64,000 nt of DNA from Prochlorococcus sp. AG-409-A10 (GTDB lineage: Bacteria > Cyanobacteriota > Cyanobacteriia > PCC-6307 > Cyanobiaceae). The stretch covers positions 163,736 to 227,735 of the forward strand of contig QCJG01000002.1 in assembly GCA_003216175.1 (NCBI GenBank), read 5' to 3'. The translations under genes and the position numbers were made by a program. How positions within the stretch are numbered: the first letter of the stretch is position 1; each line of letters begins with the position of its first letter. A model generated the notes under the pieces. That model ran no database searches and was not told the origin of the DNA. It saw only the letters and a list, made by a program, of their open reading frames with translations. Shown piece after piece: positions 1,602 to 49,742 of this stretch.

Positions 1602-3188
1602 TTAACTTGTTTTTAAGTTGATTTTAACTTTAATGAAGTCTGGATAATTAATTGTAGGGACTGCAATAGAAATATCAATATTTTGCGGTGGGGTTAGCTT
1701 GTTTCCTAGCATAGTTTTAAATAAAATATATGGATAGAAATTATTTAAAACTGTCTTAGTTTTTTCTTCCCCTAAATGTATTTTTAGGACATCATCAAAA
1801 TCATCAACTTTATCTATCTTCTGTTCATTATTTGAATAATTTTGTAAGTAATTTGTATTGTCAAAATTTGAAATAGAAGATAAGCTTTGACTCCAAATGT
1901 ATGTCTCTTCATCTTCTTCAACAATTGCTTCAATATTTTCTTTCAGCTCATATTTTTCATTTTCATCTGTGCTTATTTTTGACCAAATCTCTAGCTTTTT
2001 GTTTTTGAAATCTAGATTTGAACTTAAAAAGTTCTCTTTTTCTAGAATTTTACTTATCTCCGTTTTACTCGTATCAGATTTCCTAGTCAAAACCAACCAG
2101 TCTTTATCATTTATCCAAATTAAATTTCCTTTAGAGTTTTCAAGAACTATTTTGAAAAGTTTAGAATAATCGAAGGTTGTTGATTCTTTTATAAGAGATG
2201 CTATAAGCTTTTCATACGGATGCTCAGAATCTTTTCTAAAATACTGCTTAGGATTATCAACTAATATAAAATCTTTAGGCAATTCAGATTCTTTGTTTAT
2301 ATCAATTAAATTATAATTAATATCTTGAACTGGCATTTTAGTTTTAACATTATAAGATAGTATACCTTCTAAATTTAATTTATTTTTATATAGATTTATA
2401 GAAGATATTAAATTATCTATCTCATTTATTTTAAATAAATTTTTTTCTTGACCTATTAGATTTGAAATTTTCTTTGGAGATATTTCTAATAAAAATAAAC
2501 CGTCTTTAAGATTATCCTTTAATTGAATATTTTTATACTTTTCTTTTGCATTTAATATTTTCCTATCTAATTTCTCTATTGACGATTGTATGATTTTTGG
2601 ATTTGATGCTATTAAAAAAGTATCCTTGTCATATGTAAAGTAAATTGAGTCGTTTGAATTAATTTTTTTTGAAATTATTTTAGTTTTTGAGATGCTTAAT
2701 TTATTGCCTGGGTTATTACTCTCAGCAATAATGTTTGAGCCTAAAATAGATTCTAATTCTTTCTCAATATTTACATCTTCTTTTATTGCTAAGATCATAA
2801 TCCAATCATTTAGAGGTTTTTCGTTTGAAGAAAGTAGGGCAAAGCTCCCATAATCTCCTACCCATTTTGATATGTCTTTTGCAAAATCAAGACTAATTAA
2901 TTTAAAAAAAGAATCTCGAATAAAACTTATTTTTTTATTTATTGTCTTTTTACTAACTTTATCTTGATAATTTCCGACATAGTTTGGAAGTATCGCTGGA
3001 TTCAGTTTCCAGTGAAACACGAGATCACTATCTGTTGGTATATATTTTGAGGAAACAGGCGCATTAAATGTTTGTTCATTTAACTTAGGGATTGGCTTGA
3101 GATGCTGATTGCGCCAGATAAATATTCCTGCGAAAATTGATAAAATGATTATTCCTGATATTAAAAAATAAGGTAGACGTGATTTCAT
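1602..3188 (-). CDS. DUF3352-like membrane-anchored protein of unknown function
   Basis: 528 aa ORF with N-terminal hydrophobic anchor; resembles cyanobacterial DUF3352 proteins. Confidence 0.75.
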   Translation of the reverse strand: MKSRLPYFLISGIIILSIFAGIFIWRNQHLKPIPKLNEQTFNAPVSSKYIPTDSDLVFHWKLNPAILPNYVGNYQDKVSKKTINKKISFIRDSFFKLISLDFAKDISKWVGDYGSFALLSSNEKPLNDWIMILAIKEDVNIEKELESILGSNIIAESNNPGNKLSISKTKIISKKINSNDSIYFTYDKDTFLIASNPKIIQSSIEKLDRKILNAKEKYKNIQLKDNLKDGLFLLEISPKKISNLIGQEKNLFKINEIDNLISSINLYKNKLNLEGILSYNVKTKMPVQDINYNLIDINKESELPKDFILVDNPKQYFRKDSEHPYEKLIASLIKESTTFDYSKLFKIVLENSKGNLIWINDKDWLVLTRKSDTSKTEISKILEKENFLSSNLDFKNKKLEIWSKISTDENEKYELKENIEAIVEEDEETYIWSQSLSSISNFDNTNYLQNYSNNEQKIDKVDDFDDVLKIHLGEEKTKTVLNNFYPYILFKTMLGNKLTPPQNIDISIAVPTINYPDFIKVKINLKTS

Positions 3189-12614: not shown

Positions 12615-13067
12615 TTGGGAAAGCGTAATCCTAAAGAATGGTTATGTTTGAAACGAACAGTTCGTTTTGGTGAGACAGATGCTGCTGGCGTTGTGTATTT
12701 TCTTGAATTATTCAGATGGTGTCATGAAACTTGGGAAGAAAGTTTAGAAAAATATGGAATAGTTTTACAAGACATTTTTCCTACAAACCAAATCAATACA
12801 AGCCAACTGGATGTAGCCTTACCAGTAACTCATTGTGAAGCAAATTATTTTCAACCACTTTATGTTGGAGATACTATCAATATCGAACTAAATCCAGAGA
12901 AGATAAATGATTCTTCATTTGTACTTCGATTTAAATTAAAAAAAAATGGTGAGAAAATAGGCACGGCAAATATAAAACATGTATCGATAAATCCGATTAC
13001 AAGAGAAAAATGTGCATTATCTAAGCAAATAAATTTGTGGCTCCATGAATCTAGTTTGAATTTTTAG
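12615..13067 (+). CDS. 1,4-dihydroxy-2-naphthoyl-CoA hydrolase (4HBT thioesterase)
   Basis: 150 aa; VRFGETDAAGVVYFLELFRWCHETWEE hotdog motif; adjacent to men genes. Confidence 0.93.
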   Translation: MGKRNPKEWLCLKRTVRFGETDAAGVVYFLELFRWCHETWEESLEKYGIVLQDIFPTNQINTSQLDVALPVTHCEANYFQPLYVGDTINIELNPEKINDSSFVLRFKLKKNGEKIGTANIKHVSINPITREKCALSKQINLWLHESSLNF

Positions 13068-23088: not shown

Positions 23089-24914
23089 TACATTCTTTCC
23101 AGAGTAGGGATGCCTAACAAACTCATTCCCAGTTTAAGTGTATTTGCAGTGATAGAGCATAAAGCAAGTCTACTGGTTCTTTCAGGTTCACTTGCTTTTA
23201 AAATAGGAACTTGATCATAGAACCTGTTAAAAATCTGACTTAATTCAAATAAATACCCGCAGAGACGATTAGGAAGCAGTTCTTTTTCAACTTCAGCGAT
23301 AGCACAATCAAGTTGCAATAGCTTGCGAATTAAGGTCCATTCTTGTGGTTCATTGAACTGAATATTCTGACTTGATACATTTAAATCCCCTCCATTGCGA
23401 GATATTCCGGCTATTCGTACTAATGCATAAAGTAAATATGGAGCTGTATTCCCCTGTAAAGAGAGCATCTTATCAAAACTAAATTGGTAATTAGAAACTC
23501 TATTTTGACTTAGATCCGCATACTTGATGGCTGCAATCCCGACAGTCGTAGAAACTTTATCTATAAAACTTTCATTTTCGGACCTATTTTCAGTCTTGAG
23601 ACGATCTTTAAGATCTTCTCTTGCTCGTTGAATTGCTTCATCCAGAAGGTCTACTAATCTAATTGTTTCTCCCGAACGAGTTTTTAACTTCTTACCATCT
23701 TCTCCTTGAACAAGACCAAAGGGGACATGCTCAATTTGACAATCTGTAGGAATCCAATTCGCAAGCTTTGCAATTTGAAAAACCCCAGAGAAATGTGATG
23801 CTTGTCCAGCATCTGTGACATAAATCAAGCGGAATGCTCCATCTCCATGCGGAGGAGTAGTTAATCTGTATTTAATCGCTGCCAAATCAGTGGTTGCATA
23901 ATTAAAACCTCCATCACTTTTTTGAATAATAATTGGTTGAGGTTTGCCGTCTTTTCCTACTACGCCATCAAGGAAAATACATTGAGCTCCTTGATCTTTT
24001 ATTAGTAAATTTTTACTTTTTAAATCATTAATAACATCTACTAAAAATTTGTTATAAAAGGATTCACCTCTTTCAGTCAGGTTGATATCAAGTCGATCGT
24101 AGATCTTTTGAAATTCCTTTCTGGATTGTTTGCAGAGTAATTGCCACGCAAGTAGACTTTCTTGCTTACCTGCTTGCAAATTAACAACCTCACTTCTAGA
24201 TTTATTTTGAAAGATTTGATCTTCATCAAATCTTTTTTTTGCTTGACGATAGAAATTTACGAGATCGCTTATTTCCACTATATCTTTTGTATGGAGTGCC
24301 TCAGGAACGACCTCTTTTAGATGAGTGATGAGCATGCCAAATTGTGTACCCCAATCCCCCACATGATTGAGTCGTAAGACTTCATAACCGCAGAATTCAA
24401 GAACCCTTGCTAAGGAGTCTCCAATGATTGTTGATCGTAAGTGCCCAACATGCATTTCTTTAGCAATATTTGGACTGGAAAAATCAATAATCACGCGGTT
24501 ATTGTTTTTTCCTTCTTCTATTTTTTTTTCACTACTGAATTTTTTAAGAGGGACTCCCAATCTTTTATCATTTAGACGAAAATGGATTTCCGATATAAGT
24601 GTTTTTGAATTTACAGATAGGTTTATGAAACCTGGACCTGCAATGTGTGGTGGATTACATATTTTAACGAAATCATTATCTTTTTGTAGTTGATCAGCTA
24701 TTTGTTGCGCAATATCACGAGGAGGTTGTTTTATTTCTTTTGCCAGAGATAAAGCACAATTTATTTGAAAATCTCCAAATTCCGGCTTGGATGCGGGGAC
24801 TAAATGAGAACCTGTAAGTATTGAAGAAGTTTTTGAATTTCGAGCCTCTTTTGGGAATACTTTGATGAAAGCTCTATTAAGGGCTTCTTCTAATCTGGCG
24901 GATATTTCAAGCAT
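23088..24914 (-). CDS. argS: arginyl-tRNA synthetase
   Basis: 608 aa; [25 protein letters not shown]. Confidence 0.98.
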
Positions 24915-36386: not shown

Positions 36387-37445
36387 ATGTCTCGCCTATT
36401 AATTGCTGCAAGCGGAACGGGTGGGCATATTTATCCTGCATTGTCTTTTGCAGATTCACTTTCAAATTCTTGGGAAATTGAGTGGTTAGGTGTGCCAAAT
36501 AGGCTAGAGATTGAACTGGTTCCCAAAAAATACAAATTAATAAAGCTAAAAGTCGGAGGTTTACAGGGAAATATTTTTAGAAAAATCTTTGATTTATGCA
36601 AATTACTCTTTGCTTCTATTCGGGTTTCTTTTCTATTACGTCAAAAAAAAATTAACGTTGTTTTTACTACTGGTGGGTATATATCTGCTCCCAGTATTCT
36701 CGGCGCAAAACTTACTGGCATACCTATTGTTTTGCATGAATCTAATGCTATTCCTGGAAAAGTAACTAGGCTATTGGGTAGGTTTTGTGACCATGTTGCG
36801 TTAGGAATCCCGTCTGCTTCTGAGTATTTGCCAGGGTGTAGAACAAGTTTTACTGGAACACCTGTAAGGCCAGAATTTTTTTTAGATCAGTCTCTTCCAT
36901 CTTGGGTGCCGATAGGAGATGGTGTATTGATTGTAGTTATGGGAGGTAGTCAAGGAGCAATAAAAATGAATGAGATGGTGAGGAATATCTTGCCTTGGTT
37001 GCTTGATAAGGGTTGTAGAGTTATTCATTTGACTGGTAAAAACGATTGCTTCTATAAAAGATTAGATAAAGTTGATACTCACGCTAATTTGGTTGTCAGA
37101 CAATTTAGTAATGAAATATCGGCATTGCTGCGAAATGCCGATCTTGCAATAAGTAGAGCAGGATCTGGGGCAATTTGTGAATTAATGGTAACTAAGACCC
37201 CCTCAATTTTAATACCTTTTCCATCTTCTGCTGATCAACATCAAGAACTAAATGCTGCTTATATGGCTGGATATGGAGGTGCTGTAATAGTTAATCAACA
37301 TGATCCAGAAAAAGATATTTTGAAAAACACTATATCTAATTTACTAGATTCTAATTCTCTCAGTGAAATGAAATCAAATATGAATACTTATGATTGTCTA
37401 AATTCTGAAAATAAGATATTTGAGATTATAAATTCAATTAGATAA
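36387..37445 (+). CDS. murG: undecaprenyl-PP-MurNAc-pentapeptide N-acetylglucosaminyltransferase
   Basis: 352 aa; AASGTGGHIYPALSFA, TGGYISAPSILGAK, HESNAIPGKVTRLL, SRAGSGAICEL. Confidence 0.97.
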   Translation: MSRLLIAASGTGGHIYPALSFADSLSNSWEIEWLGVPNRLEIELVPKKYKLIKLKVGGLQGNIFRKIFDLCKLLFASIRVSFLLRQKKINVVFTTGGYISAPSILGAKLTGIPIVLHESNAIPGKVTRLLGRFCDHVALGIPSASEYLPGCRTSFTGTPVRPEFFLDQSLPSWVPIGDGVLIVVMGGSQGAIKMNEMVRNILPWLLDKGCRVIHLTGKNDCFYKRLDKVDTHANLVVRQFSNEISALLRNADLAISRAGSGAICELMVTKTPSILIPFPSSADQHQELNAAYMAGYGGAVIVNQHDPEKDILKNTISNLLDSNSLSEMKSNMNTYDCLNSENKIFEIINSIR

Positions 37446-39746: not shown

Positions 39747-40218
39747 AATCTTTTAGTTGTATGTTTCGCCCTTTAGAAAAAGCTACCGCAATTGCATCAA
39801 CTCTATCATTATCCTTTTCTCCGCTATGTCCCTTGACATATTGAAGTTTGATTTTTGGCAGTTCAGGGTGGTCAAGAGCTTTCCATAAATCTTGATTGAG
39901 AACTTGTTTACCAGATGCAGTTTTCCATCCTTTTTTTTTCCAATTCGACATCCATTTTTCCATTCCATCAATTAAATATTTGCTATCAGTTTTGATGGTC
40001 AATGAAGGGTGGAATTTTATTTCTTTTAATTTTTCAAGAACAAATAATGCAGCCTGTAATTCCATGCGATTATTTGTTGTCTTAGGGCTGAAGCCACCAA
40101 ATTCAACTTCGCTTCCATCTTGGAATCTAATTAATGCTCCCCAGCCACCTGGACCAGGATTTCCGCTACAGGCACCATCAGTTGCTGCAGCAATCGCCAA
40201 TTTTTCTTCTTTAGACAT
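39733..40218 (-). CDS. rnhA: ribonuclease HI
   Basis: 161 aa; [51 protein letters not shown]. Confidence 0.98.
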
Positions 40219-46723: not shown

Positions 46724-48055
<1,332 letters not shown>

Positions 48056-48128
48056 TTCTCACTAATTCAAGCCTTTTCTTCGTTGAAAATTATCTAAACG
48101 ACTTTCGCTTCTCATCTTAAATTTTAAT

Positions 48129-49742
48129 TTAATCCAGCTTAGAGCTATTGGAAATCCGATAGTTACAGGTATGAGAAATAAAAAAAGGTCTATTAGTTGA
48201 AGCTAGTAAAGCTGAGGATATTATAAGTGAGCCTAGAAGAACAGAATTACCTAATGATTGCTGAGCATTAATCATTCTTCTGAGTTGTCTGTCAGATTCC
48301 CCCATTCGTACTTGGAGTTGCAAGTCACCTTGCTCCAGTCTTTCTAGATTTTCATCCAAGCGTTTTGGCAACCCAACAGCTTTAGTTCCTATTTCAGTAA
48401 CTTGTCTTCCTAGTTCATTAAATAAATCATTAGATTCAGGATTTTTGGAAGTCATTAGAGGAAGAAGGAAGGGTTTTGCAATTGCTATTAAGTTAAATTC
48501 TGGGTCTAAATATCTTCCAACTCCTTCAAAAGTTGATAATGCTCTAAAAACAAAAATCAACTCAATTGGTATTCTAAAGGGTTTCCCATAAGCAAGTTCA
48601 GATATATCCCCAGAGAGTTTTTCTATAATCTGAGAATTAAATGGAGGAGTGAGAGCTTCATTTAACATAATTCTTATTAATCTTCTAACTGGACCTATTT
48701 CAACATCTCTTTCTATCAACCCAGCGATTTGTAGTTCTTTTACTAGTCCACTAACATCTCTCAGCGCTGCGGCTTTGATCATTGAATTGAGCCTGCCTCT
48801 AATACGCTCAGAGACAAAACCCATCATCCCAAAATCATAGTAAATAAGAGAACCACCTTTAGAAACAGCTAGATTGCCGGGATGGGGATCAGCATGGAAA
48901 AAACCGTAGTTAACCAATTGTTTTAAATAACTTGTAGCTCCAATTTTTGCGATTAAAGAAGTATCAATATTATTGCTTTGTAGAGATTTAATATCATTTA
49001 TCTTGATTCCTGGTAAATATTCCAAACATAAAATTTTACTGGTACTTAAATCCCAAAATACACTTGGGATTAAAATATCTGAGTCTTCTATAAATTGTTG
49101 TTTAAATCTTGCAGCATATTGAGCTTCAATTCGAAAATCCAGCTCTCTGAGTAATACTCTCTTAGATTCTTTTGCAATACCTACCCAGTCGTTACCTCTA
49201 CTAAGAGACTTTATTCTTTGAACTACTTTTGCGACTTGATTCATTACATCTAAGTCAAGCCTGAAAAACTTTTCTATGTCTGGTCTCTGAACTTTGAAAA
49301 TAACATTTTTGTCATTTATTAATCTAGCTTTATGAACTTGAGCTAGCGATGCTGAACCAATTGGAACTTCTTCAATACTAATAATTTTTTCATATGAATT
49401 TCCAAGTTGCTTGGTTAATATTTCCTTAACTTTTTCAAATGCAAAAGATGGAACTCTATCTTGAAGAGTGGTAAGCTCATTTACCCATGCAGATGGAATA
49501 ACATCAGCTCTTGCAGATAAAAGTTGGCCTAATTTTATAAATGCTGATCCTAGATTAACCAGTTCTTTTGTAAGCCATTTTGCTCTTAAGATATTTCTTT
49601 TTTCTCTTTTTTTAGTGGAGTATCCTTTTAAATAAGTCCATTTTTTTGAATCAAACCATATATAGAAAAGTAAGCATAATAATATTATCCAAATCCTAAT
49701 TGCTCTAATAAATCTTTGAAGTTGACTGGCTAAAAATATCAA
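48129..49742 (-). CDS. ABC1/UbiB-family kinase-like protein; apparent frameshift near the 3' end
   Basis: AFIKLGQLLSARADVIP, VPIGSASLAQVHKARL, FHADPHPGNLAVS. The alternative frame after T7 (48180-48186) extends the gene to 48062. Confidence 0.95.
   Translation of the reverse strand: MIFLASQLQRFIRAIRIWIILLCLLFYIWFDSKKWTYLKGYSTKKREKRNILRAKWLTKELVNLGSAFIKLGQLLSARADVIPSAWVNELTTLQDRVPSFAFEKVKEILTKQLGNSYEKIISIEEVPIGSASLAQVHKARLINDKNVIFKVQRPDIEKFFRLDLDVMNQVAKVVQRIKSLSRGNDWVGIAKESKRVLLRELDFRIEAQYAARFKQQFIEDSDILIPSVFWDLSTSKILCLEYLPGIKINDIKSLQSNNIDTSLIAKIGATSYLKQLVNYGFFHADPHPGNLAVSKGGSLIYYDFGMMGFVSERIRGRLNSMIKAAALRDVSGLVKELQIAGLIERDVEIGPVRRLIRIMLNEALTPPFNSQIIEKLSGDISELAYGKPFRIPIELIFVFRALSTFEGVGRYLDPEFNLIAIAKPFLLPLMTSKNPESNDLFNELGRQVTEIGTKAVGLPKRLDENLERLEQGDLQLQVRMGESDRQLRRMINAQQSLGNSVLLGSLIISSALLASTNRPFFISHTCNYRISNSSKLD

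Follow-up and report, generated by a model that had tools for sequence, protein, structure and literature searches.

A private one-base frameshift in the C-terminal membrane hairpin of an ABC1/UbiB-family kinase gene of a draft Prochlorococcus genome, probably an amplification or assembly error

Atypical kinases of the ABC1/UbiB/ADCK family are recognized by four motifs, namely KxGQ, an A-rich loop, a catalytic loop of the HxDxHPGN type and DFG. One-base indels in draft genomes are a known product of single-cell sequencing, and the workflow used for such Prochlorococcus genomes gave, when benchmarked on cultures, a mean of 3.0 indels and 5.0 mismatches for every 100 kbp (PMC6122165). Frameshifts in A/T runs can also be bypassed by transcriptional slippage, as described for bacterial genes with 9A/9T runs (PMC1088944) and in endosymbionts, and insertions during transcription are concentrated in A/T runs (PMC5574713). 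The locus described here resembles the bypassed genes in having a one-base indel with the other frame left intact, and the errors of single-cell assemblies (PMC6122165, PMC5519541) in being an indel of a single base that is private to a draft assembly and is followed by no decay. Unlike the benchmarked assemblies, this genome is presumed to be of single-cell origin, and an error here is probable.

The gene lies on the minus strand of a stretch of 64,000 nucleotides (the window) and occupies, as read, positions 48129 to 49742, encoding 537 aa from a TTG start that overlaps the stop of the upstream ORF. Its product matches Pfam PF03109 (ABC1) over residues 93-335 (E 2.5e-73; 246.6 bits against a gathering cut-off of 22.9) and shares with the ABC1/UbiB/ADCK family, besides this domain, KLGQ at residues 70-73, SASLAQVH at 130-137, HADPHPGN at 283-290 and DFG at 303-305, in columns that are mostly invariant. 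The sequence relatives with solved structures are COQ8A/ADCK3 (4ped, 5i35) and MABP-1 (5yjz), and the same genome carries two more ABC1-family genes elsewhere. The initial annotation as a UbiB/ABC1 kinase thus holds at the family level, but not for UbiB proper, since the NCBIfam equivalog cut-offs of TIGR01982 (334.2 vs 487.55) and NF003404 (261.5 vs 667) were missed. Relative to the family, the orthologues of this gene carry a C-terminal two-helix hairpin, which is truncated in the window gene as read.

The truncation occurs at a run of seven T (minus strand, 48186-48180; A7 at 48180..48186 on the plus strand) in the context ...AAT AGA CCT TTT TTT ATT TCT CAT..., which is one base longer than the matching stretch in each aligned orthologue. 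As read, the ORF continues from the run into an out-of-frame polar tail (48129..48182, ending ISHTCNYRISNSSKLD), so that the 537-aa protein ends in NRPFFISHTCNYRISNSSKLD at the stop at 48129. With six T, the frame reads on as NRPFLFLIPVTIGFPIALSWIKLKFKMRSESRLDNFQRRKGLN, ending in LFLIPVTIGFPIALSWIKLKFKMRSESRLDNFQ..., and stops at 48062; this leaves 6 bp to eno, which finishes on the plus strand at 48055. On re-reading, the T7 run, both stops, the sequences and the distance to eno were all as first annotated. This displaced frame (48062..48184, minus strand, stop 48062-48064) is intact except for the shift and encodes a second C-terminal membrane helix and a basic tail, LFLIPVTIGFPIALSWIKLKFKMRSESRLDNFQRRKGLN. 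The first C-terminal hydrophobic helix, SLGNSVLLGSLIISSALLA (residues 496-514; 48201..48257, minus strand), is supported by hydropathy and by the model of an orthologue, and its frame is still kept. This helix also carries, some 37 bp upstream of the run, a private change of two adjacent bases, GCA to ATA (48222-48224, minus strand), which gives A507I; this position is A in the relatives of the genus and S in the two most distant ones. Two unusual private changes so near each other could reflect poor local assembly or relaxed constraint.

That the lost part is a membrane helix with a basic tail, as initially proposed, was borne out by hydropathy, structure prediction and the C-termini of relatives. 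Two C-terminal hydrophobic segments are found with the six-T frame and one as read. AlphaFold models were built on about 41 relatives and have moderate overall confidence (mean pLDDT 72.9 and 70.7). In the model of the intact orthologue L042, the C-terminus folds into a two-helix hairpin (helices 474-515 and 519-554; block pLDDT 77-87 over 491-540), whereas in the window protein as read the first helix is kept (pLDDT around 60), the second is gone and the tail has a pLDDT of 33-45. Of the two-helix hydrophobic hairpin and basic tail that characterize the cyanobacterial orthologous group, the protein as read therefore has only the first helix complete.

Comparison with relatives shows that the six-T frame is the ancestral one, as had been suggested from the window itself. 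In the DNA alignment, all 29 same-genus orthologues are one base shorter at the exact T7 column, and all 29 encode the hydrophobic and basic C-terminus, an agreement beyond chance. The stretch is T6 in many of them and is interrupted or replaced in several (GTTTTT, CTTTTT, ATATTT, ACTGTT), but it is never seven long in the 29 aligned. The same hairpin pattern is kept at 78 loci of Prochlorococcus, Synechococcus and Cyanobium-like genomes, as read from conceptual translation of their C-termini; this set shares part of its genomes with the 29 orthologues. P525, P531 and W536 (numbering of L042) are invariant in an alignment of 41 sequences. Protein matches of same-genus relatives break off at query residue 520-523, that is, at the T run, and in the wider family nearly all end at residue 518-523. 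The polar tail ending ISHTCNYRISNSSKLD is the C-terminus of no relative, and no sequence of the SHTCNYRISNSSKLD type, which would have argued against a displaced frame, ends any of the 29 orthologues or the 78 wider loci. The exact T7 string occurs in one of 41 genus genomes, the window's own, and the extra T is thus private to this assembly among the genomes compared, one per species. The cause initially given, a single-base insertion in the T run, agrees with these alignments, which also rule out conserved dual coding.

The displaced frame carries no trace of decay. Pairwise Nei-Gojobori counts were made upstream and downstream of the T7 run; as the terminal branch is not isolated in them, they give a bound and not a date. 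For the upstream part, comparisons with relatives give a dN/dS of about 0.08-0.14. Over the 33 codons that follow the run, read in the ancestral frame, there are no nonsynonymous differences from L015 or L023 (upstream dS 0.38 and 0.42, respectively) and one from each of L004, L003, L011 and L019, with 2-6 synonymous differences in these pairwise comparisons. For these pairs, 25-33 nonsynonymous differences would be expected under neutrality along the entire path from one genome to the other, so the pairwise counts over these 33 codons give no sign of relaxed constraint or decay. The insertion is therefore either very recent or not real, the frame having been lost very recently or not at all.

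The explanation that we consider the most probable, with reasonable though not high confidence, is that the extra T in the T6 run of the relatives is an amplification or assembly error of a draft, probably single-cell, genome. The gene would then be an ordinary membrane-anchored atypical kinase of the ABC1/UbiB family, its true C-terminus being the two-helix hairpin seen in all relatives, and the living cell would make a normal 559-residue protein. The genome consists of 29 contigs and is 90% complete; within its genus, single-cell assemblies with AG numbers predominate, and its nearest named neighbours are of this kind too. It is therefore likely to be a single amplified genome itself, and the extra base is presumably not in the cell. 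It is this resemblance to a single-cell genome that favours an error over a recent mutation. The lack of the base in all 29 aligned orthologues and the unrelaxed constraint downstream also speak for an error. At the benchmark mean, about two assembly indels would be expected in a 64-kb window, so a lone, clean and private indel needs no biological cause. Homopolymer indels do arise in real cells, however, and the contig is otherwise clean, with about two coding indels in 228 kb, which is under the benchmark mean. Moreover, single-cell assemblies of P. marinus tended to have the fewest indels (PMC5519541).

To gauge the background of frameshifts, the window's 228-kb contig and syntenic stretches of five relatives were surveyed. 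Among about 60 window genes compared with the ORFs of three closed relatives, the present gene has the sole interior frameshift found in every comparison. Apparent frameshifts at 3137, 56.8k, 59.3k and 60.9k were discarded, as each was found with only one or two relatives; on alignment, those at 3137, 59.3k and 60.9k proved to lie at the start of a gene or in an intergenic stretch. The short mismatches at C-termini (18648, 21278 and 27999) involve no one-base coding indel. Outside the window, on the same contig (G000:C2, around 37266, locus L149), the loss of one base, GATATAGAACT to GATATAAACT, breaks up a short ORF (about 110 aa) when it is set against three closed relatives; two other relatives lack this ORF on the contigs that were compared. 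The three closed genomes (280 kb each, 840 kb in total) have no case as clean inside a conserved gene, a contrast that also speaks for an error in the window's assembly. Their multi-reference cases lie near gene ends or together with other changes, as judged at single-base level for the G002 case only. Of the two draft relatives, one gave a single case in a conserved gene, amid many other changes close by, and the other gave none. In the draft relative G010 (contig C1, around 136225, L187), a gene of some 386 aa, intact in five others, has a one-base deletion and many private substitutions nearby.

The next most likely explanation, a tentative one, is a real and very recent one-base insertion, produced by replication slippage on T6 in the lineage of this cell. 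If so, the hairpin would be cut to one membrane helix and a polar tail, a change either tolerated or on its way out. Homopolymers are the usual site of real indels, the kinase domain is intact, and the lack of decay past the run is what a very young mutation would leave; the private A507I change may also hint at local relaxation. However, the hairpin is kept in all of the approximately 80 genomes read by sequence, so its loss should be costly. The gene has no other signs of decay either, and no second genome has the T7 run in the comparison of one genome per species.

It is rather improbable that the T7 run is real and that full-length protein is partly made by passive transcriptional or ribosomal slippage, as an accidental bypass with no programmed device. 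In its favour, the displaced frame is intact, Escherichia coli RNA polymerase reportedly slips on runs of seven or more T (PMC6260861), and laboratory measurements exist of indel bypass in repeats of 3-8 bases (PMC3812077). With this requirement of the bacterial polymerase, though, T7 is at the lower limit, and repairing the frame requires the loss of one U, while deletions during transcription are rarely tied to homopolymers, and in Buchnera no case that restored a frame was detected (PMC5574713). Selection against runs becomes evident at about nine in a large share of genomes (PMC1088944). The window has 68 A/T runs of at least seven, 61 of them inside coding ORFs, which also weighs against a bypass; with so many, the T7 run as such is not notable. 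Runs of 7-9 are frequent in coding ORFs of the window and include four A9 (12938-12946, 24521-24529, 36643-36651 and 39931-39939), a length at which other bacteria have been reported to use slippage for expression. Minus-one ribosomal frameshifting was discarded as a route to the full-length protein: it leads to the third frame, which closes within a few codons, whereas the ancestral frame needs a one-base skip.

A conserved and functional programmed slippage site making two C-terminal isoforms is very improbable: both frames do stay open over a short distance, but the run is not conserved, being interrupted or replaced in several orthologues and seven long in none, and the polar tail serves as C-terminus in none (29 aligned, 78 loci). 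We would give equally little credence to a real T7 run acting as a slippage switch in this lineage, with mostly single-helix protein, a minority of full hairpin from slipped transcripts, and thus two membrane topologies of an ABC1 kinase. Among the options initially listed (recent insertion, slippage or sequence error), recent insertion and sequence error both stand, with error favoured, but functional slippage is not supported, given that the run is shorter or interrupted in relatives, that T7 is at the limit and that many intact window genes have similar runs.

Taken as a probable amplification or assembly error, and otherwise as a recent frameshift, private and of a familiar sort, the case is probably ordinary and not a new mechanism. 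It mainly calls for caution in annotation: the 537-residue protein and the polar tail at its end should not be passed on, and where a draft, probably single-cell, Prochlorococcus genome shows a single-base frameshift, support from reads is needed before any biological reading is given. The gene itself is best treated as a probably intact member of the ABC1 family with the conserved C-terminal membrane hairpin.
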